From: Chloroflexota bacterium
Lineage (GTDB): Bacteria > Chloroflexota > Anaerolineae > Anaerolineales > Villigracilaceae
Assembly (NCBI GenBank): GCA_021414245.1
Contig: JAIOOU010000015.1
Location: forward strand, 310,001-374,000
DNA length: 64,000 nucleotides
Direction: 5' to 3'
A program made the translations under genes and the position numbers. Under the pieces are notes generated by a model, which saw only the letters and a program-made list of their open reading frames with translations, did no database searches and had not been told where the DNA came from. Shown in pieces: positions 24,311-38,284 of the stretch. The number at the start of each line of letters is the position of its first letter. Positions within the stretch are counted from its first letter, which is position 1.

Positions 24311-25537
24311 CTAGGGTCCCCACTTCAGGGTAAACCCAAAGGGAAGGAGCGGGGTCATCACACTGTGACCGTCCGTGTAATACAGCTCAACGATGCCGCC
24401 CTGGTAAACATCCGCGATCGGACCGGAAGCAGTGATCACAAAGCTCGCATCCGGCGCCCAGAGCGCCTCGTTCAATGTGGTAAATAAATCCGGAAGCAAC
24501 ACTGTTCTATTGCTCACGCCGTCCGGTGAGGAGCGCACAAGCTGCAAAGAGACCCGGTTGACTTCATCCTGCTGGGTATAAGGCTGTGTTGCGTAGAAAA
24601 AATACAGTTGTCCATCAGGGGCGGGAAACGGATCGGCCGCAAAGTTGAGGGTATCCTGGTTCCCGGAGAAGGCGGGGATCAAGTCGGTGACAGAACCTGT
24701 AATCCCGTCCACACGCCAGAGACCCGGGGTAATAAACGGATTAAAAGAGGCATAGCTTCCATATAATGTGTTGTTATCACCCGCCCATTGCAGGGAACAG
24801 CAAATTCTGTGGCTGGCCCCGGCTCCCAAACGGACAAGCGAATGATTCCCCAGCGAAAAGATGCCCATGGCCCCGCCATCCGAAGCCAAAGGCACAATGT
24901 TGGTCAACAACTTGCTTCCATCCGGCGAATAACTGACGGGGGAGTTAACCTCCCCGAAGGTGAAGCCGTTATCGGTCTGCAATTGATCGGGATACACGAT
25001 CGTGGATTGTCCGCCCGCGATCGAATAAAGACTGATCCCGTGATGGCCGTATGCGATGGTCTGCCCGTCCGGCGACCAAAGCGGAGTGCTGACACGGTTC
25101 AAAAAAACATTATTGGGATCGATCGGCCCGCCGTCCACGATCATGCTGCGGTTGCTGCCATCTACATTGACAGTGAATATCTGATTGTTGGTCAGATACG
25201 CCACACTCCCGTCCAGCGGGGAGACATCGTATCCCTCGACATTGACTGGCTCGAAGGTCACCTGGGTCACAGTCCTGGCGTCCCTTTCAAGGCGATACAC
25301 CTGAACCAGTCCGGCGGCATCGTTGTTGAGAAAATACATCGAATGCGGAAGCAGGCTTTCATTGTCGGGAGGGAGCGTGGCAACCGGCTGTTGGACCGGG
25401 GCGGTCAATGCCTGCAATGTGGCCGCGACCACGGTCTCGACATTGGCGGGCTGGGCGGGGCTGGTCACGGGATTGGCACAGGCCAGAACAGCGGCAAGGA
25501 ACACAAAAAGTACAGCATACATCCGTTTTTTTTTCAT
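24311..25537 (-). CDS. Beta-propeller lipoprotein (TolB/WD40-like)
   Basis: A 408-residue lipoprotein. KKKRMY, a hydrophobic helix and the lipobox AAVLAC (Cys about residue 20) form the signal; a Pro/Gln/Val-rich linker leads to repeated beta blades from about residue 65. Several blades carry the TolB-like signature SPDG (STPLWSPDGQTIAYG, SYSPDGSKLL, SSPDG, and WAPDASFVI in variant form). Such propellers bind proteins or ligands outside the membrane. No catalytic site is visible. The function is unknown; it may be a sensor or scaffold. Confidence 0.7.
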   Translation of the reverse strand: MKKKRMYAVLFVFLAAVLACANPVTSPAQPANVETVVAATLQALTAPVQQPVATLPPDNESLLPHSMYFLNNDAAGLVQVYRLERDARTVTQVTFEPVNVEGYDVSPLDGSVAYLTNNQIFTVNVDGSNRSMIVDGGPIDPNNVFLNRVSTPLWSPDGQTIAYGHHGISLYSIAGGQSTIVYPDQLQTDNGFTFGEVNSPVSYSPDGSKLLTNIVPLASDGGAMGIFSLGNHSLVRLGAGASHRICCSLQWAGDNNTLYGSYASFNPFITPGLWRVDGITGSVTDLIPAFSGNQDTLNFAADPFPAPDGQLYFFYATQPYTQQDEVNRVSLQLVRSSPDGVSNRTVLLPDLFTTLNEALWAPDASFVITASGPIADVYQGGIVELYYTDGHSVMTPLLPFGFTLKWGP

Positions 25538-25714: not shown

Positions 25715-25975
25715 CTACACTTGTTCGAAGTGCTGCACGGGAACCACAAAAAGGGTTGCCCGTTTTTTGTCATTCGAGGCGGGCAGGGAATCGTGCACGA
25801 CCTTGATGGCCGCATCCACCTGTTGATCCTCAACGCCCAGCAGCATGGTCACCACCCCGCTGCGCATGAATCCGCCCGTGGAAGCCACGCGCGTCACGCG
25901 GAAATTATTCGCAGTGAACGACTGTGTAAGCGTATCGGCATCGTGATCCTTGACAATAATAATGATCATCTTCAT
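25715..25975 (-). CDS. c-di-AMP receptor-like protein (DarA/PstA family) 1
   Basis: An 86-residue protein with a PII-like ferredoxin fold of the cyclic-di-AMP receptor family (PstA/DarA). The signature TGGFMRSGVVTMLLGVED (about residues 31-48) matches the TGGF-x-R-x-G loop and following strand that hold the nucleotide in that family; the C-terminal VVPVQHFEQV is also typical. The family's usual length is about 110, so a loop is shortened. The ATG at 25975, directly after AGGAGAG, is chosen over the one at 25999. It is the last gene of the long minus-strand operon. Binding of c-di-AMP is inferred from family, and no diadenylate cyclase is in the window. Confidence 0.75.
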   Translation of the reverse strand: MKMIIIIVKDHDADTLTQSFTANNFRVTRVASTGGFMRSGVVTMLLGVEDQQVDAAIKVVHDSLPASNDKKRATLFVVPVQHFEQV

Positions 25976-26032
25976 GAGGGTCTCTCCTGATAATTTCAAC
26001 TGAAACTGCCATTTGCGGCAGCGGAAGCTGGT

Positions 26033-26371
26033 CTAAATTTGTTCGAATCTCTCAACCGGCAGGGCAAAGACGGTCGCACCGCCCACCGTGACGGGCACCG
26101 GCGCGGGCATCGGCATGGGCGATCCTTCGAGTGGAAGGGTCATGTATTCGATTCGCTGGCGGCAGGCCGTATGCAGGGCTTCGAGCGCTTGCTTTTCCTT
26201 TTCAACAGGCAGGCCGATCAATAATGTCGCGTTGCGGCGGCCAAGAAATCCGCCTGCGCTGGACAAATACGTGAGCGAAGCTCCCACCCCCTGCAGGGCC
26301 TTGGTCGCGGTCTCCAGATCCTGATCCTGGATGACCGCCATTAACAATAAATGGATCGGGGCTGTTGTCAT
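26033..26371 (-). CDS. c-di-AMP receptor-like protein 2
   Basis: A 112-residue paralogue of the preceding gene. The signature reads SSAGGFLGRRNATLLIGLP, keeping the GGF and the charged position after it, and the end VFALPVERFEQI parallels VVPVQHFEQV. A proline/methionine-rich loop (GSPMPMPAPVPV) extends the segment before the last strand, a place where family members differ. The start overlaps the stop of the PII-like gene by four bases (26368-26371). Two paralogues in tandem suggest a heteromer or two ligand affinities. The ligand is inferred. Confidence 0.65.
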   Translation of the reverse strand: MTTAPIHLLLMAVIQDQDLETATKALQGVGASLTYLSSAGGFLGRRNATLLIGLPVEKEKQALEALHTACRQRIEYMTLPLEGSPMPMPAPVPVTVGGATVFALPVERFEQI

Positions 26372-26730
26372 TTTCTTTTTCCTTGATTATCAATGCCATA
26401 TACCTTAAACACAGGCACGGCCACAAGAACACCGCTTCCGGGAACATTCAGATCACCCGTCACGCGCTGCGTGGCCGCAAGGATCTTATCAATCATAGAT
26501 TCTTCTTTTATCACAGCAAAAACCGTACGGCTGATCGTTTCAGGAGCTTTATAAAAATCATCAAGAGAGGGAATCAGCGGAATATCGTCGCGAATGCCGT
26601 GTTTTTGAAGAATTCTTTCCATCCCCGTACTGAATTGGACCGTTGCGCCTTCCACGCCTTCTTTATCCCATTCTTTTAACAATTCTTCCAGTAAATCCGG
26701 GTTATACAAAAACAAAATAATCAAAAACAT
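26368..26730 (-). CDS. PII-like protein
   Basis: A 120-residue protein, hydrophobic at the start (MFLIILFLYNPDLLEELLKEW), with a C-terminal half resembling PII-type trimers: TVFAVIKEESMIDKILAATQ followed by VPGSGVLVAVPVFKVYG. The start of the translation looks like a first beta strand plus helix with the order seen in PII proteins. The T-loop is reduced and lacks the uridylylated tyrosine. Start and antiporter stop share one base (26730). The likely role is a ligand-responsive regulator of the neighbouring antiporter; the ligand is unknown. Confidence 0.6.
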   Translation of the reverse strand: MFLIILFLYNPDLLEELLKEWDKEGVEGATVQFSTGMERILQKHGIRDDIPLIPSLDDFYKAPETISRTVFAVIKEESMIDKILAATQRVTGDLNVPGSGVLVAVPVFKVYGIDNQGKRK

Positions 26731-27986
26731 TAAGACACCTCCGATTCCTTTTCTTCAGACCGACCCGGGGGTTGATCCGTTTCTACGACTTCCTTCAATG
26801 CCTTATCTTCCTTCCGGGCAAACAATGTACGCAGGATGGGCGGCGTAATCAGGGTGGTGATCAATACCATGACGACAATGGCGGAAAACTCCTCTGCACT
26901 TACCAAATTATCCTTCACCCCCACACTTGCCACAATAAGTCCCACTTCACCACGCGAAATCATTCCCGCACCTAGTTGAATCGATTCCTGTCTTGAAAGC
27001 CCGCCAAGCCGAGCGCCCCATCCTGAACCCAGCCATTTGCCGACAACAGCCACTACAATAATAACAACTGTAAGGAACAGTGCCTCCAGTTGAAAGGTCT
27101 GCAAATCAATGGATAAGCCGATATTCACGAAAAAGATCGGTACAAATAATCCATATGCGAGTGCGTGCATGCCGGACTCAATTCTCTCTTTCTCATGCGT
27201 ACGGGCCAGCATCAAGCCCGCCAAAAACGCGCCGGTGATGGCAGCCATTCCGCCAAAGTATTCTGAAGCGATGCCATAAGCCAGCATGATGACGAGAGAA
27301 ATGGTAAGCAAACCCTGGCTGATTGGAAGCTTGGAAATACGGCGAATAATCCACGGCAGCACCCACAACCCGATCATGACCGAAAGGACAAGGAACAGGA
27401 TCATACGAACAATGATAACAAGAACACCATATGTACTTCCTTCCCCGCCCTGCAAGGCAAGAAATATGGAAAGCAACAAGATGATCAAAATATCATCAAA
27501 AACTGCCGCACCCAGAAGGCTGAGCCCTACACGACTGCGCAACGCCTTGAGCTCAATCATCGTCTGCGCAGAGATACTTACACTGGTGGCGCCAAGCGTC
27601 AAACCCAAAAAGATCGCAGCAGATTGATCCAAACCAAAAAGCAGGCCCACGCCCCATCCCAATAATACAGGCCAGACCACACCCATTAATCCAGCAAGAG
27701 CAGCTACGCGTAAATTCTGCTTCATCTCATCAAAGTGCAATTCCAGTCCTGCAAGAAACATAAGCAGGAGCACGCCAAGCTCGCCAAGTTTGGCAACCGT
27801 CTCAGCTAGTTCGTGTTCGACAAAAGAGAAATTCAGAAGATTAATGATGGAGGGTCCAAGCAGAATACCAACCAATAATTCACCCAGAACAGAGGGCTGC
27901 CCCAGACGAATGCTGGCATATCCCGCCATCTTTGCAGACAGCAGAATAACTGAAAGGAGAAAGGCGAGTTGAAGAAACAGGCTCAT
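26730..27986 (-). CDS. Cation/proton antiporter (CPA2 family)
   Basis: A 418-residue membrane protein with about twelve helices, typical of the Kef/NapA branch of monovalent cation:proton antiporters. Key marks are GELLVGILLGPSIINLL in helix 2, LMFLAGLELHFDEMK, GLTLGATSVSISAQTM, and the ion-binding helix LLGAAVFDDILIILLL with the FDD pair. The end is a charged cytoplasmic tail of about 30 residues (REDKALKEVVETDQPPGRSEEK region) without an RCK domain. It exchanges Na+ or K+ for protons across the cell membrane. Adjacent PII-like and c-di-AMP receptor-like genes suggest small-ligand control. Confidence 0.85.
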   Translation of the reverse strand: MSLFLQLAFLLSVILLSAKMAGYASIRLGQPSVLGELLVGILLGPSIINLLNFSFVEHELAETVAKLGELGVLLLMFLAGLELHFDEMKQNLRVAALAGLMGVVWPVLLGWGVGLLFGLDQSAAIFLGLTLGATSVSISAQTMIELKALRSRVGLSLLGAAVFDDILIILLLSIFLALQGGEGSTYGVLVIIVRMILFLVLSVMIGLWVLPWIIRRISKLPISQGLLTISLVIMLAYGIASEYFGGMAAITGAFLAGLMLARTHEKERIESGMHALAYGLFVPIFFVNIGLSIDLQTFQLEALFLTVVIIVVAVVGKWLGSGWGARLGGLSRQESIQLGAGMISRGEVGLIVASVGVKDNLVSAEEFSAIVVMVLITTLITPPILRTLFARKEDKALKEVVETDQPPGRSEEKESEVS

Positions 27987-28011
27987 GTGATTAATAGTAT
28001 AACTCGAAAAA

Positions 28012-29841
28012 TTATGATGCTTGATGTTTTATCTTGATTTTTTCAAGGTATTCTTGCACTTGGATCATCGGTGGGCGTTCGCCCTCGGCAATCTCTTCAA
28101 TCTCAAGAAAGAAACGATCCTGCTCATAACGGATCATCTTCATGGTCTTGTTAATATTCTCCAAAATACTCTGGCCGTATTTTCCCTCGAGTTTTCGGAT
28201 AACCGCCTGGATGATGGCAAAGGACATTTTCCCCAAGGCATCCAGGGGCTGATTATGATGAATGCGTTCGAGCAAATCAACCTGGGCGATCGATCGTAAT
28301 CCGAACCTGTCAAGCATGTCAATTAACAAGCCGATCTCGACCCCATATCCGGAAAAGAAGGGGAGTTGTTCCAAAACGCTGCGCCTGCCGCCATATTCCC
28401 CTGAAAGAGGCTGCACCATGCCCGAAAGTTCCGGGTAAAACAAATTAAGCAACGGCCGGGCTGTCAACTCGGTGACGCGACCGCCGCTGCCTGCCTGCAT
28501 CTTGTTCCCGACTTTCAAGGGGCGGCGATAAAACCCCTTCACAAAATCAATCTCGGGTCGAAGAAGAAGCGGGCCGACCAATCCGTAGATAAAGCGCGGG
28601 TGAATATTCACAATATCCGTATCGATCCAGATGATGATATCCCCGTGCGTGCAATACAGGCTTTTCCATAATGCCTCGCCCTTCCCCTTTCGCGCACCAT
28701 ATTGAGGCAATATCTGTTGATGGATTTGAACGGGCACTCCCATCCGTTGTGCGATCTGGCGGGTGCGATCCGTGGAATTGGAATCGATTAACACGATTTC
28801 ATCCAACAGAGGGAAACGTCTCATCAGAACATTCTTGATCGTTCTGAGAACCTTGCCAACTGTCTTTTCCTCGTTAAGGGCCGGCAATGCCAGGCTGATC
28901 GTCAGGTTCTGTTTTTGTTTCAGGGTCAGCAGGTATTTCAGATCGGCGAATTCATCCGCATGGAATGTATTTTCCGCAAACCATTTATCCACCAGCACGG
29001 AGATGGCCGTTTGCGCCGCCTCTTCGCTGGCGGGGTTAACTTCATAGGGAAGCTTTGTTTTGACGACAATCACGCCCCGCTGGCTTTCCTGCATGATCCG
29101 TTCCGCGACTGGACCCATGGAAGGCACTTCGGAAATGGGCCTTGCAGACGCGCCCATGACGATCAGATCATATCGTTGGGCGGCATCGAAAATGGCCCCG
29201 GCGGGATCATCCGTTACAACCTCCTCCCTTTTGATCTCAGGGAGGTTTTTCAGCACCCGATTAACCCCTGTGAAGGCGGCATCCTGATCTCTGGTAATGT
29301 TACCCGGGAAAAGATGCATGGATGAAATCTCGGCACGATTCGATTTTCGAATGGACAGGGCGATCCTCAGACTTAACTCCGCGTATGGGCCCCCTCGAAT
29401 GGGGATCAACATGTTTTTGATATTAGGGCCGATACGCTGATTGACGATGGCAATATTGCATGGCGCCTGCGAAAGAACCTCCGCAACGGACACCTTCAAC
29501 GCATCAAAATGGCAGGGCCATTCAAGCAGCAACAGGTCGATCTCTTCGCTTTTTACAACATCGATTACTTCGCCCCATAAATCATGCGAAACATGCACCT
29601 GGGCCCATTTATCTCCACGCTTCACCTTGTAAAGTTTTTTGAGGGTTTGCCTCAACTGGCGCGCCTCCAACGCCGCGGTGCTGAGAGACTGATCTTCAGG
29701 AACAAAGACAAAGCCTGTCAGCAGGACCCTTTCATCCCCGGCGATCGAATGTGCAGCCTGAATGGCAGATCTCTGATCACAGGGATTGAGGACGGGGACC
29801 AGAACCTTCCCGACAAAGGCATTCCTTGATGCAGGGTACAT
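28012..29841 (-). CDS. gpgS: USP-USP-glucosyl-3-phosphoglycerate synthase fusion
   Basis: A 609-residue fusion. Residues about 10-135 and 140-265 are two universal-stress-protein-like domains; the second has DLIVMGASAR and the basic GVIVVKTK end, the usual phosphate-binding region of USPs. Residues about 310-580 are a GT2 glycosyltransferase: ALPALNEEKTV, IVLIDSNSTDRT, the DTD metal motif at 407-409 (WIDTDIVN), VKGFYRRP, and LSGEYGGRRSVLEQLPFFSGYGVE (as two pieces). These match glucosyl-3-phosphoglycerate synthase, which transfers glucose from an NDP-glucose to 3-phosphoglycerate, the first step of glucosylglycerate synthesis. Normal GpgS proteins are about 320-420 residues, so the USP half is an addition, perhaps a nucleotide sensor. 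It sits 13 bp from the upstream GT4 gene. Confidence 0.85.
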   Translation of the reverse strand: MYPASRNAFVGKVLVPVLNPCDQRSAIQAAHSIAGDERVLLTGFVFVPEDQSLSTAALEARQLRQTLKKLYKVKRGDKWAQVHVSHDLWGEVIDVVKSEEIDLLLLEWPCHFDALKVSVAEVLSQAPCNIAIVNQRIGPNIKNMLIPIRGGPYAELSLRIALSIRKSNRAEISSMHLFPGNITRDQDAAFTGVNRVLKNLPEIKREEVVTDDPAGAIFDAAQRYDLIVMGASARPISEVPSMGPVAERIMQESQRGVIVVKTKLPYEVNPASEEAAQTAISVLVDKWFAENTFHADEFADLKYLLTLKQKQNLTISLALPALNEEKTVGKVLRTIKNVLMRRFPLLDEIVLIDSNSTDRTRQIAQRMGVPVQIHQQILPQYGARKGKGEALWKSLYCTHGDIIIWIDTDIVNIHPRFIYGLVGPLLLRPEIDFVKGFYRRPLKVGNKMQAGSGGRVTELTARPLLNLFYPELSGMVQPLSGEYGGRRSVLEQLPFFSGYGVEIGLLIDMLDRFGLRSIAQVDLLERIHHNQPLDALGKMSFAIIQAVIRKLEGKYGQSILENINKTMKMIRYEQDRFFLEIEEIAEGERPPMIQVQEYLEKIKIKHQAS

Positions 29842-29854
29842 TGCGTCTCCTTAT

Positions 29855-31072
29855 CTAGCGCTTCAATAAGAGCTTGATCCTTCCAGCATAGATCCGCTCC
29901 CAGGTGAATTGCCCGCGGACGAACGTTCGCAGACCAAAGGTTTTGTCACTTGAAAAATACCCGGCCATCCTCCCGGCTACCACTTCAGGTTTTTCTTCGA
30001 GTGAAAAATAGTGCCCAAAATCACCACCAAGTTTCTTTAACGGTGGAATATCCGAACAAAAAACCGGTATGCCTGCAAAGCCTGCCTCCAAAATTGGGAT
30101 TCCAAACCCTTCTTCAAAACTAGGGAATAACAGTGCATCTGCAAGTTTGTAGAAATCCGAAATGACCGGATCAGGGATGAACTCTTCCGTCAATTCGGCC
30201 AGAAAATGCACACTTCGATTCAAACCCAGTTTTTCCCGCAGAGAATCCAATTTTTCGAAGTATTTTCGATTCGCCGGGTTATGCGGACCCAGGGGACCGG
30301 TCACGATCATTTGCGCGGAAGGAAACCCCTCTCGCAGGACTTCCAGAATCTGCATGGCAAACTCGATATTCTTGCGCGGTGTGATGCGGACAGGCAGCAG
30401 AAGCAGGGGAGTGGCTTGCAATAGGTCCAGTTTTTTGATCCATCCAAAGGTCTGATCCTCGAGTTTGAGGAATGCAGCCAGGTCAACTCCGTTGGGAATC
30501 ACATGGATCCGGGATGGATCCAGACTCATCAGGTTCGAGAGTTCCTCCCGGCGCATTTCGGAGATGGTGACCTGTGTCGCCTCAGGCCAGGCGGTTTTCA
30601 ACAAATCCCACGGATAACCTTCATACAGTTCGGATCGATAACGGGGGGTTGTCCACGCCAGGTCATGATGCCAGATGATGAGGCGCGGAAGTTTTCCGGC
30701 AACCTGTAATTGGTGGAGCGCGGCAGTCAGTGCGAGGTTCTTGTTCAACGAGCATACATTATGGGCAATCAAAATCTCAACATCTGTAACGGCAGTTAAT
30801 ATTTGCCCGGCTAATTCATCACGCAGCGATTCAAAATCCTTTGTTGCTTCGCCCCGATCCAATTGTTCCTTGACCTCAGCCACCCGGGCATTGCGTGAAT
30901 CTGCAAGTGGAATAATGGTCAGGGGAATCTGACTGCCGAGAGGCTCCCCGCGCGCCGCAATCAAACGCACGGAATGTCCGTCTGCGGACATCAGGCGCGC
31001 GTGATGGGCAATGACGGCCTCCACCCCTCCCACAACGGGCGGCACGGAATAGTGAAGAATGGCAATGTTCAT
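29855..31072 (-). CDS. GT4 glycosyltransferase
   Basis: A 405-residue GT-B-fold enzyme of family GT4. The N-terminal domain opens with HYSVPPVVGGVEAVI, the GG-containing loop that binds acceptor and donor, and the C-terminal domain has VIPNGVDLAAF, LPVRITPRKN, and FPSFEEGFGIPILEAGFAG with the E-x7-E pair of retaining GT4 enzymes. The acceptor is unknown; operon context suggests a compatible-solute or storage glycoside. Its ATG overlaps the ClC stop by four bases (31069-31072). It shares low similarity with the other GT4 gene of the operon (32748-34082), so the two are not recent duplicates. Confidence 0.8.
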   Translation of the reverse strand: MNIAILHYSVPPVVGGVEAVIAHHARLMSADGHSVRLIAARGEPLGSQIPLTIIPLADSRNARVAEVKEQLDRGEATKDFESLRDELAGQILTAVTDVEILIAHNVCSLNKNLALTAALHQLQVAGKLPRLIIWHHDLAWTTPRYRSELYEGYPWDLLKTAWPEATQVTISEMRREELSNLMSLDPSRIHVIPNGVDLAAFLKLEDQTFGWIKKLDLLQATPLLLLPVRITPRKNIEFAMQILEVLREGFPSAQMIVTGPLGPHNPANRKYFEKLDSLREKLGLNRSVHFLAELTEEFIPDPVISDFYKLADALLFPSFEEGFGIPILEAGFAGIPVFCSDIPPLKKLGGDFGHYFSLEEKPEVVAGRMAGYFSSDKTFGLRTFVRGQFTWERIYAGRIKLLLKR

Positions 31073-32685
31073 TCTATGGGTTCCTGACGAGACGATTTAC
31101 AGCCTTTGCGTAGAAGCGCTATGCCTTCCAATGCGTCAGTTTCAATGACAGCAGTAATACGCGTGTTTGCCTCCAGCCGGGTATTGGCTTTTGGTACCCA
31201 TTCACGTTTTCCCCTGGAACAGCGCACAAGAATACATCCCGAAGGCAACCCCAACGCATGCACAATCTTCCCATCAAATGGAGAGCCTTCCTGCACTGTG
31301 AAATCCATGACAACAGGTTTGGTAAATTTTTGAGGATCCCCTGCCTGCAACAAATCCCGTTCAAAAAGGGCTTCATAGATCGGCAAATCCTTTAAATATT
31401 CCGCGACTGCATAAGCAAAGAAACAACTGATCAGCAACGGCAGCATTTGCTCATAATTCCCCGTCATTTCAATGATCAGCACAACACCGGTCAAAGGGGC
31501 ACGCACAATGGCTGTAAAATAAGCTGCCATTCCCACCACCGCGAAGACAGCAGGCACCGGGACCGCCGAGGGAATGATCAGTTGAGTAATTTCCCCAACT
31601 CCCAGGCCAATTAACGCGCCCAGTACAAGGAGCGGGGCAAAAATACCGCCTGGAGCCCCTGTGCCATAACTGGAAATTGTCAGCAGGAAACGAATGACGA
31701 ACCATAACGGAATTACAGTTAAAGCCATTTTCCCGGACAAGACCATTTCCGTCAGTGAATGGCCGCTGCCGATGGCCGTTGAAGAAAACCAGCCAGTCAA
31801 TCCGATGGCCGCACCTGTGACAGCCATCGCCAGGGTCTTATTTTTCAGCCCTCCATAAAAATCGAGCGAAAAGATCAAACTTCGGTTGAAGGCGATTCCA
31901 AATAATCCAGCCAAAATTCCGAGAATTGCAAAAGCGGGAAGCGCTGCCAGAGGCGGCGTTGGATATTTGATCATGGCGAAGACCGGGAAAGGGTCTGCAC
32001 CTATGCGCGCAATCACATCCGCAACTGCTGCGGCAAGAAAAGCGGCGCCAAAAACAATAGGCTGAAAATCGCGTTGGACTTCCTCCAGGACAAACACCAA
32101 ACCGGAAAGCGGAGCATTGAATGCAGCGGCAAGGCCGGCGCCCGCCCCGGCCGCAATCAATGTCAACCGTTCACGCGGCGAAACTTTCAATGCCTTTGAA
32201 ACCGCATCCCCTACAGCACCTCCCATTTGAACAGTTGGACCTTCCCTGCCAAGGGCAAGCCCGCTGCCAATTGCTGCAATCCCACCCAGAAATTTGACAG
32301 GTAATACCCGTGTCCATTCCAATTCCTGTAATCGTTGCAGGACGGCTTCCAGGTGAGGAATTCCGCTTCCTTTTGTTTCCGGCGCATAGCGTCTTGTCAG
32401 GATAAGGCTGAGCGTTGCTCCGACCGCGCTGAAAATTACCGGAAAAATCCAGCCCCACAGCGGCTGTTCATGTGCTTTTTCAAGCAGGGAATTTCGCAAG
32501 ACATCCATGCCCGACAATGCGCCACGAAACAGAATGGCAACAATGCCCGCACACAACCCAACCAGGGCCGCAATGGGCAACAATCGACGTCTCTGCTGGC
32601 GCATAAGAAGAAATCCCTGAACTTCTGATTCCACAAGTTCAACTTTCATCCGGGACGATTCTTTTTCGTTATAGGTATTTTCCAT
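31069..32685 (-). CDS. ClC-type chloride channel/antiporter with RCK_C domain
   Basis: A 538-residue ClC-family protein. The filter-forming segments are GSGIPHLEAV, GREGPTVQMGGAVGDAVSK and GTGAPGGIFAPLLVLGALIG; a glutamate in GREGP is the gating or proton glutamate. About eleven hydrophobic segments fit the ClC fold. The final 85 residues (VMDFTVQEGSPFDGKIVHALGLP and the stretch to TRITAVIETDAL) form an RCK_C/TrkA_C-like domain, a regulatory module that in K+ transporters can bind c-di-AMP. Whether it transports as channel or exchanger is not certain. The operon partners are solute enzymes and c-di-AMP receptors, so a role in anion balance during osmotic change fits. Confidence 0.85.
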   Translation of the reverse strand: MENTYNEKESSRMKVELVESEVQGFLLMRQQRRRLLPIAALVGLCAGIVAILFRGALSGMDVLRNSLLEKAHEQPLWGWIFPVIFSAVGATLSLILTRRYAPETKGSGIPHLEAVLQRLQELEWTRVLPVKFLGGIAAIGSGLALGREGPTVQMGGAVGDAVSKALKVSPRERLTLIAAGAGAGLAAAFNAPLSGLVFVLEEVQRDFQPIVFGAAFLAAAVADVIARIGADPFPVFAMIKYPTPPLAALPAFAILGILAGLFGIAFNRSLIFSLDFYGGLKNKTLAMAVTGAAIGLTGWFSSTAIGSGHSLTEMVLSGKMALTVIPLWFVIRFLLTISSYGTGAPGGIFAPLLVLGALIGLGVGEITQLIIPSAVPVPAVFAVVGMAAYFTAIVRAPLTGVVLIIEMTGNYEQMLPLLISCFFAYAVAEYLKDLPIYEALFERDLLQAGDPQKFTKPVVMDFTVQEGSPFDGKIVHALGLPSGCILVRCSRGKREWVPKANTRLEANTRITAVIETDALEGIALLRKGCKSSRQEPIE

Positions 32686-32747
32686 GATCAGATTCCTGAG
32701 TACATCAATTTTAAAAACTCAACGCAGGATTTGACAAACATTCATAT

Positions 32748-34082
32748 TCATCCTTGTTGCCCAAAACAATCTGCGAGGATGGATTGCAGACGGCGCTCCA
32801 AAACAGCGAAGGAAAAATATCGTTTTGCAAGCTGATAATTTATCTGCGCCCATTCCCCTGCCTGCGCATCATCCGTCAAAATTTGGCGCACCCGCTTCAG
32901 CGTTTCAGCGTTGATAAACCCGTCAAACCAAACTGTTCGAAATCCTTTGGGTTTGATATCCACCTCATAGATCGAATAATTATTAACCAGGATCGGGCGG
33001 CGGTAATAGACGGCTTCAAGAAAGGCATTCCCGAATCCCTCTATGCTTGATGGATAGGTCACCAGATCAGCCTGTGGATAGACATCCCCCAGGGTGTAGA
33101 TCTTTTTTCCGTCTTTAGTCAGGCCGCGTTCATCCTGCACCTGCTCGGATTCGAAACGGACAGCCACATTCAACAAATGGGCATACTCGCGAACGCGCTG
33201 CTCATAATCCGTGCCTTCATCTCCCGAAGCATGCGAGATGACGAGTTTTGCGGGAAGTTCAAGCCGCCGCACAAGTTCCACGGCATGTTCGATCCCTTTG
33301 CGCTGAATCACCCGCGTAGGCTGAAGAATAAGGAATTCCCCCGGTCGTACGTCGAAGTCTTTGCGAACGGTCTGTGTGTACGCATCGGGGGCGGGCGGCG
33401 GGTTGTCAAAATCCATCACATTCGGGATCACCCGCGCAGTCACGCCATAACGCGATGCGATCTGCTGCGACTGAATGGAATTGATGACCACATGACGGAC
33501 CGATGGAAGGGTCGGTGGAAATGCAGCCGCGAGATAATCCCCCACACAATTGACCTGAAAACGCTGGCGCTCCCAATGAAAATCATGATGATGCGCGATG
33601 ACCGGGTACCCCGTTTCGGCGATGAATTCCGTCAAGGCAAGACCCAGCGGCAGGTTAAGCGGGATCGTCACCGCATTCTCGATCACCAGAATCTCCACAT
33701 CGAACCGTCTGGCGAATTTATACAACTCCACTTTGAAATAATCCTTGAGCTCGTTGATGCGACGGGTCATCCCGGGCGGGCGCACATAAATGGAGAAAAA
33801 ATCCTTGTGCAGATCAGACATTTCGGGATGTGACTCACGCGCCTCGCGTGTCACAGTCCAGCTGCCCGAAAAGGCCTGTTGATTAATTTTGTCAATTTCC
33901 GGGTGACGATAATGCGCCTCGGGCACGACCTGGGATCTGTCGCTGCTTCGATCACATTCACCGGCAAAATAGAAACATTCATGCCCCAGCCGCCCGAACA
34001 CGGCCGCCCATTTTTCCGTTTCAAGGGAAACACCGTCCGTACCTGCAAAACGCGTGGAAACAAAACCAATATGATGGGTCAT
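32748..34082 (-). CDS. GT4 glycosyltransferase resembling mannosylglucosylglycerate synthase (MggA-like)
   Basis: A 444-residue GT4 enzyme. It opens HIGFVSTRFAGTDGVSLETEKW, a start I associate with MggA-like enzymes of the mannosylglucosylglycerate pathway. HHHDFHWERQRF, VIPNVMDFDNPP, LQPTRVIQRKGIEHAVELVRR and PSSIEGFGNAFLEAVYYRRP with the E-x7-E pair complete the fold. The ATG at 34082 overlaps the stop of the upstream GH13 gene by four bases (ATGA), which makes translational coupling very likely and decides the start over 34217. The activity (mannose or glucose donor) cannot be told from sequence, but the GpgS partner in the operon supports a glycosylglycerate product. Confidence 0.75.
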   Translation of the reverse strand: MTHHIGFVSTRFAGTDGVSLETEKWAAVFGRLGHECFYFAGECDRSSDRSQVVPEAHYRHPEIDKINQQAFSGSWTVTREARESHPEMSDLHKDFFSIYVRPPGMTRRINELKDYFKVELYKFARRFDVEILVIENAVTIPLNLPLGLALTEFIAETGYPVIAHHHDFHWERQRFQVNCVGDYLAAAFPPTLPSVRHVVINSIQSQQIASRYGVTARVIPNVMDFDNPPPAPDAYTQTVRKDFDVRPGEFLILQPTRVIQRKGIEHAVELVRRLELPAKLVISHASGDEGTDYEQRVREYAHLLNVAVRFESEQVQDERGLTKDGKKIYTLGDVYPQADLVTYPSSIEGFGNAFLEAVYYRRPILVNNYSIYEVDIKPKGFRTVWFDGFINAETLKRVRQILTDDAQAGEWAQINYQLAKRYFSFAVLERRLQSILADCFGQQG

Positions 34083-35764
34083 AGTTTCATCCATAAAAAC
34101 TGATGGGGTCCAAGCACAATATCGGATGCCGGCAAAGGCCGGCCTGTAAACAGATCGATCGCCGCTTTCAGTTCCATCCGGGCGGACAACCCGGCTGCGC
34201 TGACATTGTGCAGGCACAGCACGCGCGACATGCCGTCAGGTGAAATACGTTCGATCGCAAACAGGGCCGGGTGAACATTCAGGATCTTTTGTGCGCCGTG
34301 CGGATCAAACGCCGGCGCGCCGCTTCTTGCCTTCAGCAATTTGCGATAGCGCCTGAAAACTTTCGCACGCAGGGAGTTCTCGTCAGCAAGTTCGTTCTGC
34401 AATGCATCAACCTGATATTTCTCACGGTTGATCGCGCGAGGGTGACCTGTCCGTTTTACTCCTTCGCTCCATCCGCGCGAACCGAACAGGCTGTGAAAAT
34501 AGATTCCCGGCAGGCCGGCGAGCGAAAGCATAATGGCTTGAGCGGTCATGAAGCGGTCAATTTGCACATCCAAAGACTCACTGCCATTTGGGTTGGACAG
34601 CGCATCAAAATAATTGATGTTCATTTCATACGGGCTCTGAATCCCGTCTGGATTGTGCCTGCTGGAGATCAAACCGCCATGAACGACCGTCCTGTCCACC
34701 AGCGAGTCGATTTCAGCGCTGGATAGAATTCCCCGGACAGGATTCAGCCCGATCCCGTCGTGCGATGCGAGGAAATTAAAAAAAGTTGCCTTATCCGAAG
34801 GCAGGGACAACGTCCCCGCCCAATCCGATAACACCTGCGCATTCCCTTTCTGAAAAGCATGCAGGGTTAACGGCGGCAGGGCAAAATTGTAAATTAAGTG
34901 GGCCTCGTTGGTTCCATCCCCGAAATAGGAGAGATTATCCTCATGCGGGACATTGGTCTCGGTAATCAAACGAACATGCGGTGCGGCCTGATCGAGTGCA
35001 GCCCGTAAAAATCGAACCACAAGATGGGTCTGCAGCAGGTGAATGCAGGCCGTGCCGGCTTCCTTCCAAAGATAGGCAACCGCATCAAGACGAATGAAGT
35101 CCGCACCGTGTTGAATGTACATTAGCAGAACATCAAGGATTTCAAACAACACCTCTGGGTCTTTATAATTCAAATCGACTTGATCCGCGCTGAATGTCGT
35201 CCATATCCGCTTTTCGCCGGATGGTGTTTGAAAGGAGGTCAGCAACGGAAGCGTACGCGGCCGGACGACCTGCGAGAGATCGGGAGAACCATTCACGGCA
35301 ATAAAGTAATTTTTATACTTTGAATCGTTCTGCAGGAAGCTTTTGAACCATTCACTTTGCGAAGAGACGTGATTGATCACACCGTCGAACATCAAACGGA
35401 ATCCACTCCGCCGAATCGAGGCGATATCATCCCAATTGCCGAATTCCGGGTCCACCTTGCGGTAATCAGCCACGGAAAAGCCGTCATCCGAAGTGGATGG
35501 ATAAAAGGGCAGGATATGAAGCCCGCTGACAGCATCTTTCAAATATTGTTTGCTAAATAACTGGAGTGTTTGCAGGGGGGATTTATCCGCCGATCGGACC
35601 TGATCGGCGTACAAGATCAGAATGGAGTCCCTCTCGGTCAAACCTTCATTGCGTGGGGATATTTTTTTCCGGTAGTCGTCGATCAATTTCTGCGTGCGTT
35701 CATACAGCCGTGGTGCTTTGTCTTCCCCGTATAATAAAGTGAGGTATTTGATGATTTTTTTCAT
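34079..35764 (-). CDS. GH13_18-type disaccharide phosphorylase (glucosylglycerate phosphorylase-like)
   Basis: A 561-residue (beta/alpha)8 enzyme of the sucrose-phosphorylase subfamily of GH13. ILPFYPSTSDDGFSVADYRKVDPE and VNHVSSQSEWF are typical, the nucleophile aspartate is in DFIRLDAVAYLWKE, the acid/base glutamate in LITETNVPH, and the third carboxylate in LASHDGIG. GH13_18 enzymes split sucrose, glucosylglycerol or glucosylglycerate with phosphate to give glucose-1-phosphate. With gpgS downstream, glucosylglycerate phosphorolysis is the most likely reaction; this is inference. Its product could feed phosphohexomutase or glgC. It is the first gene of the operon; a loose TTGAAA/TATTAA pair lies upstream. 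Confidence 0.8.
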   Translation of the reverse strand: MKKIIKYLTLLYGEDKAPRLYERTQKLIDDYRKKISPRNEGLTERDSILILYADQVRSADKSPLQTLQLFSKQYLKDAVSGLHILPFYPSTSDDGFSVADYRKVDPEFGNWDDIASIRRSGFRLMFDGVINHVSSQSEWFKSFLQNDSKYKNYFIAVNGSPDLSQVVRPRTLPLLTSFQTPSGEKRIWTTFSADQVDLNYKDPEVLFEILDVLLMYIQHGADFIRLDAVAYLWKEAGTACIHLLQTHLVVRFLRAALDQAAPHVRLITETNVPHEDNLSYFGDGTNEAHLIYNFALPPLTLHAFQKGNAQVLSDWAGTLSLPSDKATFFNFLASHDGIGLNPVRGILSSAEIDSLVDRTVVHGGLISSRHNPDGIQSPYEMNINYFDALSNPNGSESLDVQIDRFMTAQAIMLSLAGLPGIYFHSLFGSRGWSEGVKRTGHPRAINREKYQVDALQNELADENSLRAKVFRRYRKLLKARSGAPAFDPHGAQKILNVHPALFAIERISPDGMSRVLCLHNVSAAGLSARMELKAAIDLFTGRPLPASDIVLGPHQFLWMKL

Positions 35765-35899: not shown

Positions 35900-38284
35900 T
35901 TACATCTCAACCACGCAGGGCTGTTCCCCGGTTACGATCAGGCTTTCCCCATTCCTGAAAGTGACCACGGTTTGTTCCATGCCGCGCACGATCGTCAGTC
36001 CCTTGTATTTGATCGTCACCGGCCAGGGAAATAAATTCGCGCCCTCCAGTCTGACTTTTGTCGAGGAAAGAACAGTCACGCCCAGCGCCTGCATGAATAA
36101 TCCCACAGGCGCAAACCCTGACAGCGCATTCCGTTCTCCGATCCCGGTGCCTTTTTCCGCATGATAACGCTGGTAAAAAGCATGGTTTTGCTTAAGGTTT
36201 TGAATGACCGCGTTCATCAAATGCGCGGTCAGGCGCGTGGCCTCCGCGCGAAAGCCGTAGGCAAGCAGTCCTTCGCCGATCAATTGATTCCAGGGCAGGC
36301 TGACGCCCATCGAGACATCCTCCGCTTCCGGGTCCGGTGGAACCGTGAGCGCAGGCATGCCAAAGGGCCGGTCAAACCGGTCCGCGGTCATCAGGTTGCG
36401 TCCCAACATGGCAGTCGCCTGCTGTGCGTCAGGGATGCCTGCCCAAAGCGGCAATGCGAGTGTGATATCTTCTCCCGAAGTATCAACCGTTTTCACAACG
36501 ATCCTGTCTTTTTCATCCAGGCCGGTCACGGTGACCCTGCCCACGCGGAAGAATATTTTTTGAGTGGCAGCCACCAATCCGCCGGTCCGCCACTGGAATT
36601 GGTGGCCCGGAATGGTTTCGACTTCGCCTTTGGATTTCGTGAAGAATTCGCTGACCTCGACCTGGGGGCGCTTCGCAGCGGGACTTTTGGTCTGGATCTC
36701 GATCAACAACCGGGTGCCCGCTTCAAACTCGGCCTTGGGACGCATGTTGCCATCGCCTTTTTTCTTTGCGATGACCATGCCTGTGGAGGTCAGGCCCGTT
36801 TCGCGGTCACGATAGGAGTAAAAACTTTGGTTTGCATTCCAACCGGCAAGGAGCGAGGCCTTTAAGGTCCCCGCCTGGGACAGGACCAGCGCGACATCCT
36901 CCTCCGGTTTGCCGATCTTTTTCGCGATCCGGAGAATCGACAGGGCCTCGCGATACAGCATGGCTTCGAGGGAGGGGCTATGGACAAGGGAAATATCCAG
37001 TCCCTGGGACCACGGATTCCATACATCGAAGAGGGGATTATCTTCAAACCCGGTCTGCAGGATGTGGTCCCATTCGGGGATGCCGTCACGGTTGCGGTCA
37101 TGCACGGAGGAAAACCAGGACCAGAAAAACCTGGTTAATTTTGGAAATACATCTGCAAGAAATGACTCGTCCTGCGAAGTTTGATAATACTTCCATGCAA
37201 GGCTGGCCAGCAGGGGAGCAGCGCTTAATTTTCCACGCTGTGCAGCCAGGCCCGGCCTGCCGTCCACTTCGCCATCCTCGTCCTGCGTGGAAAGGAAATT
37301 TAAGATCAGGTTTTTGGCCACCTGCGGGGAACCTTGTAGAATGTCTGAAAGATAATAAGACTCGAGCGGGGACTGGCCATTCCAGGAAGGCGGATAATCC
37401 GCGCCGTCCCCCTTGCGGGAGAAACCGTTGTCCACGTTGCGCGCATTTACAAAGGACGGGTGAGGCAGCTGTTCGCTGCTGTTGAAGAATAATCCGTGCG
37501 CAGCCTTTTGACTGAAAGAGAGCGCGGCATCCCAATCCGGGTCGCCAGTACGGATGTCCAATATTTGGGAGGCATCCAACAATTCAATGCGGGTGCGTTC
37601 CGCCTCCCACGAGCGCGCAGCGCTGTGCCGGGCCAGTTCAAAGGATGTCGCAACGGTATCCAGGGCGGCCTCGGCAAAGCTGATCTGCCTGGTTGAACCG
37701 GGACCCAGCTCGAGGTCAAGTAGGAGCGAGGGATAGGGACCGGGACCGTGCTTGGGGCCGCCGGTCATAAAGACCACCGGAGCGATCCCGCTGGTTTGTC
37801 CGGCCAGAACATTCACCAATTGCTGCTGGGTGGGGATGATGGATTGGCCATCGAGGGGCGCAAGCAGGGCACACACCTCAAGTTTGAGCTGGCGTATGCT
37901 GTTGCTTTTGTTGGTGAGCATCACCCGGCCGGCTACAGCGTGGGATTCGGGCACCCAAAATTCGGTTGTGACGTACAGGTTCTCAAGGGGAACAAAATCA
38001 AGGGTCAGGAAGTTTGGGTAGAAGCGGCGCAGTGACGGTTTGGAGACGAAGGTGTTAGGGTCTGTAACGGAGACATTATTCTCCGTGAAACGCAGGAACA
38101 TACGCATGGAACGGGCACGCAGACCAAACGTGGTATGCAGGGAAACAGCAGCCCGTTCCGGATCGCCCCCGCCGAGTTCGACTTCCCAGATATGATCGTT
38201 GACGTAATCCGGCCTGCACAAACGGGCGTCCGCGGCTAGGGACAGGTAAAGCGGGTCGCCGGGGTGTAGGGACCAATCACGCAT
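35900..38284 (-). CDS. (alpha/alpha)6 glycoside hydrolase (amylo-1,6-glucosidase/GH63-like)
   Basis: A 794-residue enzyme. The N-terminal third is beta-sandwich-rich (VTTEFWVPESHAVAGRVMLTNKS), and the rest is an (alpha/alpha)6 barrel with patterns such as PPSWNGQSPLESYYLSDIL, DEDGEVDGRPGLAAQ, DRNRDGIPEWDHILQTGFED (seen in two pieces) and GISERNALSGF-like GIGERNALSGFAPVGLF. This resembles glycogen-debranching or GH63-type trimming enzymes and the mannosylglycerate/glucosylglycerate hydrolases. It could recycle the same solute as the operon downstream. An ATG at 38320 opens the frame, but MRDWSLHPGDPL from 38284 looks like the true start. Confidence 0.65.
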   Translation of the reverse strand: MRDWSLHPGDPLYLSLAADARLCRPDYVNDHIWEVELGGGDPERAAVSLHTTFGLRARSMRMFLRFTENNVSVTDPNTFVSKPSLRRFYPNFLTLDFVPLENLYVTTEFWVPESHAVAGRVMLTNKSNSIRQLKLEVCALLAPLDGQSIIPTQQQLVNVLAGQTSGIAPVVFMTGGPKHGPGPYPSLLLDLELGPGSTRQISFAEAALDTVATSFELARHSAARSWEAERTRIELLDASQILDIRTGDPDWDAALSFSQKAAHGLFFNSSEQLPHPSFVNARNVDNGFSRKGDGADYPPSWNGQSPLESYYLSDILQGSPQVAKNLILNFLSTQDEDGEVDGRPGLAAQRGKLSAAPLLASLAWKYYQTSQDESFLADVFPKLTRFFWSWFSSVHDRNRDGIPEWDHILQTGFEDNPLFDVWNPWSQGLDISLVHSPSLEAMLYREALSILRIAKKIGKPEEDVALVLSQAGTLKASLLAGWNANQSFYSYRDRETGLTSTGMVIAKKKGDGNMRPKAEFEAGTRLLIEIQTKSPAAKRPQVEVSEFFTKSKGEVETIPGHQFQWRTGGLVAATQKIFFRVGRVTVTGLDEKDRIVVKTVDTSGEDITLALPLWAGIPDAQQATAMLGRNLMTADRFDRPFGMPALTVPPDPEAEDVSMGVSLPWNQLIGEGLLAYGFRAEATRLTAHLMNAVIQNLKQNHAFYQRYHAEKGTGIGERNALSGFAPVGLFMQALGVTVLSSTKVRLEGANLFPWPVTIKYKGLTIVRGMEQTVVTFRNGESLIVTGEQPCVVEM

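Follow-up and report, generated by a model that had tools for sequence, protein, structure and literature searches.

DarA-like gene pairs beside changing antiporter genes in Anaerolineales: a candidate c-di-AMP-linked cassette controlling ion antiport

Proteins of the DarA/PstA family have been known structurally since 2014-2015. In the section cited of the 2015 Listeria paper, PstA is described as lacking a known function and as a protein which may regulate membrane transporters (PMC4475381), and a 2021 abstract still counts DarA among the targets of cyclic di-AMP (c-di-AMP) with unknown function (PMC7900238). Control of antiporters by c-di-AMP is already known in kind, with export by the K+/H+ antiporter CpaA of Staphylococcus aureus described in the cited part of one paper as activated by c-di-AMP (PMC10243994) and the cyanobacterial antiporters NhaS5 and NhaS2 presented, in the passage cited from another, as putative c-di-AMP receptors (PMC10117731). 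Two further systems offer points of comparison, namely the SbtB/PII-like transporter partners, where a PII-fold regulator gene lies beside a membrane transporter gene, and the glucosylglycerate pathway, comprising a glucosyl-3-phosphoglycerate synthase (GpgS), a glucosylglycerate phosphorylase and a glucosylglycerate hydrolase. The subject of the present analysis is a stretch of 64,000 nucleotides, hereafter the window, from a Chloroflexota bacterium of the order Anaerolineales and family Villigracilaceae (contig JAIOOU010000015.1, positions 310,001 to 374,000), in which two DarA-like genes, DarA1 and DarA2, follow a cation/proton antiporter gene. The evidence tips slightly towards the pair being a control cassette that links ion antiport to c-di-AMP and is sometimes placed inside a glucosylglycerate operon. 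The four genes on which this reading centers are:

26730..27986, minus strand: CPA2-type monovalent cation/proton antiporter without an RCK domain (PF00999, 220.2 bits)
26368..26730, minus strand: PII-fold protein of 120 amino acids, coupled to the antiporter gene (AlphaFold2 and Foldseek)
26033..26371, minus strand: DarA1, DarA/PstA-like protein with the pocket kept apart from His108 (PF06153, 74.3 bits against 27)
25715..25975, minus strand: DarA2, short DarA-like protein with an altered pocket (PF06153, 76.4 bits against 27)

The window DarA1 shares with the DarA/PstA proteins of Bacillota the fold, the T-loop GGFL, Asn41 and GGA. Unlike these, the window proteins form a two-gene tandem, belong to a group with antiporter fusion or linkage, and do not reach the cut-off of 140 of the NCBIfam DarA equivalog NF058593 (83.4 and 77.3 bits), for which reason they are called DarA-like rather than DarA. 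The solved chains nearest to the two are Listeria PstA and Bacillus-type DarA/YaaQ, with DarA1 closest to Listeria PstA, and the AlphaFold2 model of DarA2 (pLDDT 89.1) likewise has PstA as its nearest fold. The gene at 26368-26730 does not encode a DarA. Its product has no Pfam or NCBIfam family match, PF00543 giving none at E<=0.01, and its AlphaFold2 model (pLDDT 79.1, with a poorly predicted T-loop region) finds PII/GlnK chains as best Foldseek matches (E 8.1e-07), pointing to a predicted PII fold. Within its family, 11 of 19 members, the window member not included, match PF00543 at E<=0.01, and the homologue at locus L083 exceeds the cut-off (30.6 against 25). The antiporter reaches PF00999 and remains below TIGR00932 (200.2 bits against 238.3); PF00999 is the sole domain found in 26730-27986, and the CpaA-type combination of CPA2 with RCK_N/RCK_C is absent from it. 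What the window shares with CpaA is the coupling of a cation/proton antiporter to a c-di-AMP receptor domain, here a predicted one; it differs in that the receptor is of the DarA-type PII fold rather than RCK_C. From the SbtB systems the window differs in that the partner is a cation antiporter and that three PII-fold genes stand in a row. With distances counted in transcription order from the chosen start codons, the CPA2 and PII-like genes overlap by 1 base and the PII-like and DarA1 genes by 4 bases, and a complex of the three proteins fits this translational coupling. DarA2 follows at a gap of 57 bases from its ATG at 25975, which is preceded by AGGAG, or of 33 from the listed TTG at 25999.

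The first-pass annotation had set recurrence of the arrangement in other Anaerolineae as a test, and recurrence was found in other genomes of Anaerolineales type. A DarA1 alignment was scanned against 84,980 species genomes, which gave 235 relatives; the best 80, all from Chloroflexota, were kept, and partner genes were counted on the DarA1 strand. DarA2 is found in 79 of the 80 loci, directly after DarA1 in 78. The transporter beside the pair is variable: CPA2 occurs in 22 loci, an ArsB/CitMHS-type transporter (PF03600, 284.9 bits; PF02040, 75.4 bits) in 25, NhaA (408.3 bits against an NCBIfam cut-off of 254) in four, and CPA1 unfused in eight and fused to DarA1 in five. A hand count places CPA1, CPA2 or NhaA in 36/80, rising to 55/80 when the ArsB/CitMHS type is included. 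Other companions are a fusion of Usp domains to GpgS (32/80), an MGH-like glycosidase (25/80), a CBS protein (22/80), a PII-like protein (18/80) and a Na/Ca exchanger (13/80). GpgS and an antiporter-type gene are found together in 26 loci, and at least one of the antiporter-type, GpgS and MGH-like genes in 77. The 4-base overlap of PII-like and DarA1 genes recurs in 10 of the 17 loci where the former is the immediate neighbor. The DarA1 tree is a weak one (8 of its 78 inner branches are starred) and implies at least 29 changes of immediate partner, some of which cross starred forks. United by such forks are a CPA1 fusion and an ArsB/CitMHS-type locus (L238, L249), NhaA and the ArsB/CitMHS type (L198, L206, L225), and CPA1 and the ArsB/CitMHS type (L172, L174, L197, L201). 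The arrangement exceeds chance, since this unit holds the only two PF06153 genes of the window genome and one of the three PF00999 genes that its 3.87 Mb contain, and since the layout recurs.

Surveys of the class and order have extended this picture. PF06153 genes are present in 264 of 396 class genomes, and one gene cluster, which we take to be thymidylate-kinase-like, lies near the PF06153 gene in 34 of 60 loci from other orders. Many of the higher-scoring PF06153 genes of those orders adjoin a presumed thymidylate-kinase-like gene, whereas the window pair adjoins ion and solute genes. Of the 61 genomes surveyed in the window's order, 35 contain PF06153 matches, all low-scoring (best 1.5e-24) and mostly in the DarA1-DarA2 tandem. 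Among 40 DarA loci taken from 30 of the order's genomes, DarA1 is fused to the C-terminal end of a CPA1 antiporter in 14 loci of 14 genomes and seven families. Both Pfam domains exceed their cut-offs in one frame in all ten open reading frames (ORFs) tested, as does the NCBIfam model TIGR00831 in three of three. These fusions constitute the strongest sign of a physical coupling of DarA to antiporters. The order CPA2, PII-like, DarA1, DarA2 also appears in three genomes of two families (L081, L083, L088), and the DarA pair follows an MGH-like gene in L079, L089 and L101. Fusion outside the order was considered and not adopted: CPA1 homologues occur in 64 of 298 class genomes, 60 of them from families other than the window's, and for these 60 no alignment extends past position 549 of the 628 in the model, an end point that is no proof of absence, as G148, which has a DarA tail, aligned only to 506. 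Most CPA1 frames of those 60 are about 520-570 amino acids long, with G088, G069, G016 and G093 reaching at least 614.

From these observations a working model may be drawn. GpgS would form glucosyl-3-phosphoglycerate, which two glycosyltransferases of family GT4 may extend, and a GH13 phosphorylase-type enzyme together with the MGH-like glycosidase would take the solute back. The CPA2 antiporter would move K+ or Na+ against H+, with the PII-fold protein and the DarA1-DarA2 pair as its control part. The c-di-AMP made by CdaA would bind DarA1, which, joined with DarA2 in a mixed or neighboring trimer, would set antiporter activity, and ion export would thereby be matched to the level of the organic solute. 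By analogy with CpaA, the effect is expected to be an activation of export, and a DarA-type subunit would then be another route to antiporter control by c-di-AMP. We infer c-di-AMP as the ligand, the antiporter as contact and target, and the direction of the effect.

Several observations weigh against this model. The 80 loci, the nearest of the 235 relatives, are themselves interrelated, and 19 of them lack both GpgS and any antiporter-type gene; an MGH-like gene is present in 16 of the 19. The ArsB/CitMHS-type transporters exceed no NCBIfam antiporter cut-off. A single conserved contact surface is unlikely because the partners are of unrelated fold, and loci with a free DarA1 may rely on indirect control. 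Within the order, PF06153 matches are missing from 26 of 61 genomes, none of the searched partners was found at L076, L077, L082, L086, L087, L096 and L098, and DarA2 lies apart from the fusion in three f69 genomes (L072, L074, L105). The residue corresponding to His108 of PstA is Glu in DarA1. Finally, a control that speaks for the model has its limits: 60 PF06153 loci of other orders showed one CBS match and none for CPA1, CPA2, NhaA, the ArsB/CitMHS type, Usp-GpgS, MGH, PII-like or the Na/Ca exchanger, but the queries come from the window's order, and the control loci are hand-picked, shorter (median 8501 against 12321 bases) and from more distant genomes, and omit L066 and L067 of family f42, known to adjoin GpgS.

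An alternative in which the DarA pair controls solute synthesis, through GpgS or the GT4 enzymes, with the antiporters as mere co-members of an osmotic regulon, has to be weighed against the remaining genes of the unit:

35900..38284, minus strand: MGH-like glycoside hydrolase (PF22422, 60.8 bits against 27)
34079..35764, minus strand: GH13 enzyme of the sucrose/glucosylglycerol/glucosylglycerate phosphorylase type (PF00128, 96.7 bits)
32748..34082, minus strand: GT4a, glycosyltransferase related to mannosylglucosylglycerate synthase (NF041101, 218.2 bits, cut-off 640)
31069..32685, minus strand: ClC H+/Cl- exchanger carrying a TrkA_C/RCK_C domain (PF00654 and PF02080 both above their cut-offs; NF003640, 461.2 against 350)
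29855..31072, minus strand: GT4b, glycosyltransferase (PF00534, 62.1 bits)
28012..29841, minus strand: Usp-Usp-GpgS fusion, glucosyl-3-phosphoglycerate synthase (NF010496, 380.2 against 262; PF00582 in two stretches)

The first-pass annotation had described nine tightly packed minus-strand genes within 25715-35764, with gaps of 0-62 bases or ATGA overlaps, and both the ORFs and the gaps were confirmed at their positions. It had missed a tenth gene, the MGH-like glycosidase at 35900-38284, whose start (ATG 38284) was picked by comparison with the homologue at L089; this lies 135 bases upstream of GH13 and is probably the first gene of a unit of ten running from 38284 to 25715. At a locus of the same genus (L040) only ClC is missing from the ten, and the order of the remaining nine, the MGH-like gene included, is unchanged. 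GT4a starts with the ATG at 34082, which forms an ATGA overlap with the stop of GH13 (an alternative ATG at 34094 gives -16), and it is followed by distances of 62 to ClC, -4 from ClC to GT4b, 13 to Usp-GpgS and 25 to CPA2. We infer a single transcript. Pattern scans for terminator-like sites (12 against a shuffled mean of 17.4) and promoter-like sites (20 against 11.7) were not informative. The solute side resembles the known glucosylglycerate pathway in a GpgS above its cut-off and a GH13 related to the GH13_18 phosphorylases; it differs in the Usp domains fused to GpgS, in the lack of a phosphatase gene in the unit, and in a GH13 and a GT4a that exceed no specific cut-off. GH13 falls below the sucrose phosphorylase model TIGR03852 (200.2 against 334.4 bits), with glucosylglycerol and sucrose phosphorylases among its nearest solved relatives, and a sequence search with the MGH-like glycosidase gave no solved relative. 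The label of MggA-like GT4 given earlier to GT4a was not supported, as this protein, like GT4b (67.0 bits), is far from the MggA/MggS cut-off; GT4b is the customary neighbor of Usp-GpgS across the class.

Control of solute synthesis would agree with the loci where Usp-GpgS stands directly upstream of DarA1 and no antiporter-type gene was found between them, six of the 80 (among the 32 with Usp-GpgS overall), and with family f42, where a DarA nearer to the standard proteins (126.0 and 130.2 bits, with the cut-off at 140) sits between GT4b and the GpgS homologue (L066:8359-8715, L067:8837-9169; that of L066 without a Usp match in Pfam). Yet of 120 class genomes 37 have a Usp-GpgS fusion, and 32 of these loci have no DarA-like gene; the five that do belong to the window's genus (three) and f42 (two), and on that count a general DarA-GpgS link was rejected. 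In the order survey GpgS and a DarA-like gene share a place only in the window's genus. Antiporter fusions of DarA1 span seven families, and no fusion to GpgS or a glycosyltransferase was found. Control of solute synthesis is considered unlikely. The view of one unit joining ions and a compatible solute stands in so far as solute and ion genes are mixed, and falls in so far as the DarA link to solute synthesis is not general. The arrangement is real and repeated near the window lineage, with one separate distant case, but it does not hold generally: across the order, the DarA pair is tied more broadly to antiporters and the MGH-like glycosidase than to GpgS.

A slightly less probable alternative holds that DarA1 and DarA2 read another adenine nucleotide and act as an energy or metabolite sensor near osmotic genes, a role for which the PII-fold relatives that bind ATP, ADP or AMP provide a precedent. 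In the structural section cited, the c-di-AMP contacts of Listeria PstA are GGFL34-37, Thr28, Asn41, Gly47, GGA94-96, Thr97, Phe99 and His108, and Asn41Ala weakens binding, with the Kd rising to about 140 uM (PMC4475381). The window DarA1 has all of these residues except His108. Across 81 DarA1 rows (the window and the 80 loci) the pocket is nearly invariant apart from Thr28 (Thr in 60/81) and position 108 (Glu in 80/81), an invariance partly due to selection, as the 80 rows were found by patterns holding GGFL..N or GGA. In 22 rows hand-chosen from 41 found with the Pfam model, Asn47, Gly40-Gly41-Phe42 and Gly98-Ala99 (the Asn, the GGF and the GA of GGA) are kept in at least 90%. The window DarA2 lacks Asn41, G94, G95 and His108, and has Met for Leu37. 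In 79 DarA2 rows, which were not selected on their own residues, Thr28, GG and Gly47 are always kept; Asn41 is kept in four and lost in 75 (Val in 65), and the B-loop GG, usually replaced by Lys-Arg, in none. DarA2 is thus modelled as a PstA-fold protein with a changed pocket, and with Asn41 and the B-loop glycines lost it appears doubtful as a c-di-AMP receptor. These losses, and the replacement of His108 in both proteins, favor another nucleotide; against it, DarA1 keeps GGFL, Asn41, Gly47, GGA and Phe99, and the genome has a cyclase, its one DAC domain being of CdaA type (207.9 against 188.8 bits). Four DHH genes are also encoded in the genome. No match to the c-di-AMP riboswitch RF00379 was found in the genome, and riboswitch control was rejected; the only RNA match in the window was a tRNA. 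The original c-di-AMP reading is supported for the cyclase and the DarA1 pocket apart from His108, and not supported for the ClC RCK_C, the DarA2 pocket and the gene 26368-26730.

The ClC gene had been regarded as a c-di-AMP-responsive part through its RCK_C domain. It was found in none of the 80 related loci, is rejected on that ground as a core part and is best seen as an extra gene of the window genome. The Usp domains were likewise set aside as c-di-AMP sensors, since 66 Usp-GpgS ORFs searched with simple patterns showed neither the KdpD-type motif (A/G/C)xSxSxxN nor the Usp ATP motif. A joint switching of the unit by several receptors, the ClC RCK_C among them, is accordingly very improbable: c-di-AMP is bound by RCK_C domains of other transporters in the section cited, but the isolated RCK_C of the ClC homologue EriC from Group B Streptococcus gave no c-di-AMP signal there, the full-length protein not being excluded by the authors (PMC5919688), and the ClC distribution, the DarA2 pocket and the Usp motif counts argue the same way.

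Returning to the control cassette, a wider and more tentative proposal, given somewhat less than an even chance, is that DarA-type PII proteins serve in this one order as exchangeable control subunits of cation/proton antiporters, the transporter being swapped and the sensor kept, with c-di-AMP controlling ion export. The pair would be coupled by fusion or operon to CPA1, CPA2, NhaA or the ArsB/CitMHS type, with a third DarA-like protein in an F-type ATPase operon. If true, the DarA/PstA family would gain its missing class of targets. The in-frame fusions and the repeated transporter exchange give the idea of transporter regulation a concrete test, and recurrence in mostly uncultured bacteria suggests a role for a poorly understood receptor family. 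On present evidence, what is new is that the coupled part is a receptor of DarA type and that the transporter beside it is exchanged. The open-licence literature yielded no paper linking DarA/PstA to an antiporter or c-di-AMP to glucosylglycerate genes, a search largely outside subscription journals and preprints and no proof of absence.

In four loci of families f48 and f49, an F-type ATPase operon holds a third DarA-like gene, placed between its alpha and gamma genes; Pfam names were checked for L107 and, in L097 as well as L107, for the DarA-like gene:

L097:4122-4448, L107:4089-4409, L108:4003-4323, L110:4382-4702: third DarA-like gene

The c-subunit of L107 contains an EST..Y stretch, presumably a Na+-binding signature, and this ATPase may be a Na+-translocating N-ATPase that includes a DarA-like subunit. 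Genes for transporters of the major facilitator superfamily (MFS) lie beside a DarA-like pair in L085, L090, L092, L094, L095 and L149 (PF07690 checked in L092 and L149) and beside a single DarA-like gene in L109. A Fic-domain protein is encoded directly upstream of DarA1 in L227 and L230. A two-CBS protein (e.g., L203:4232-4687) is often encoded ahead of the ArsB/CitMHS-type transporter; since c-di-AMP receptors are known among other CBS proteins, it may be a further sensor. A histidine phosphatase (PF00300; e.g., L203:2468-3058) adjoins Usp-GpgS, being its neighbor in 7 of the 80 loci, and may act as the GpgP-type phosphatase that is otherwise missing for the GpgS product; two distant relatives occur elsewhere in the window genome. 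Finally, DarA2 is followed in the window by a lipoprotein-like gene with weak WD40-like repeats (24311-25537), whose homologous cluster (K2) was seen in 28 clustered loci.

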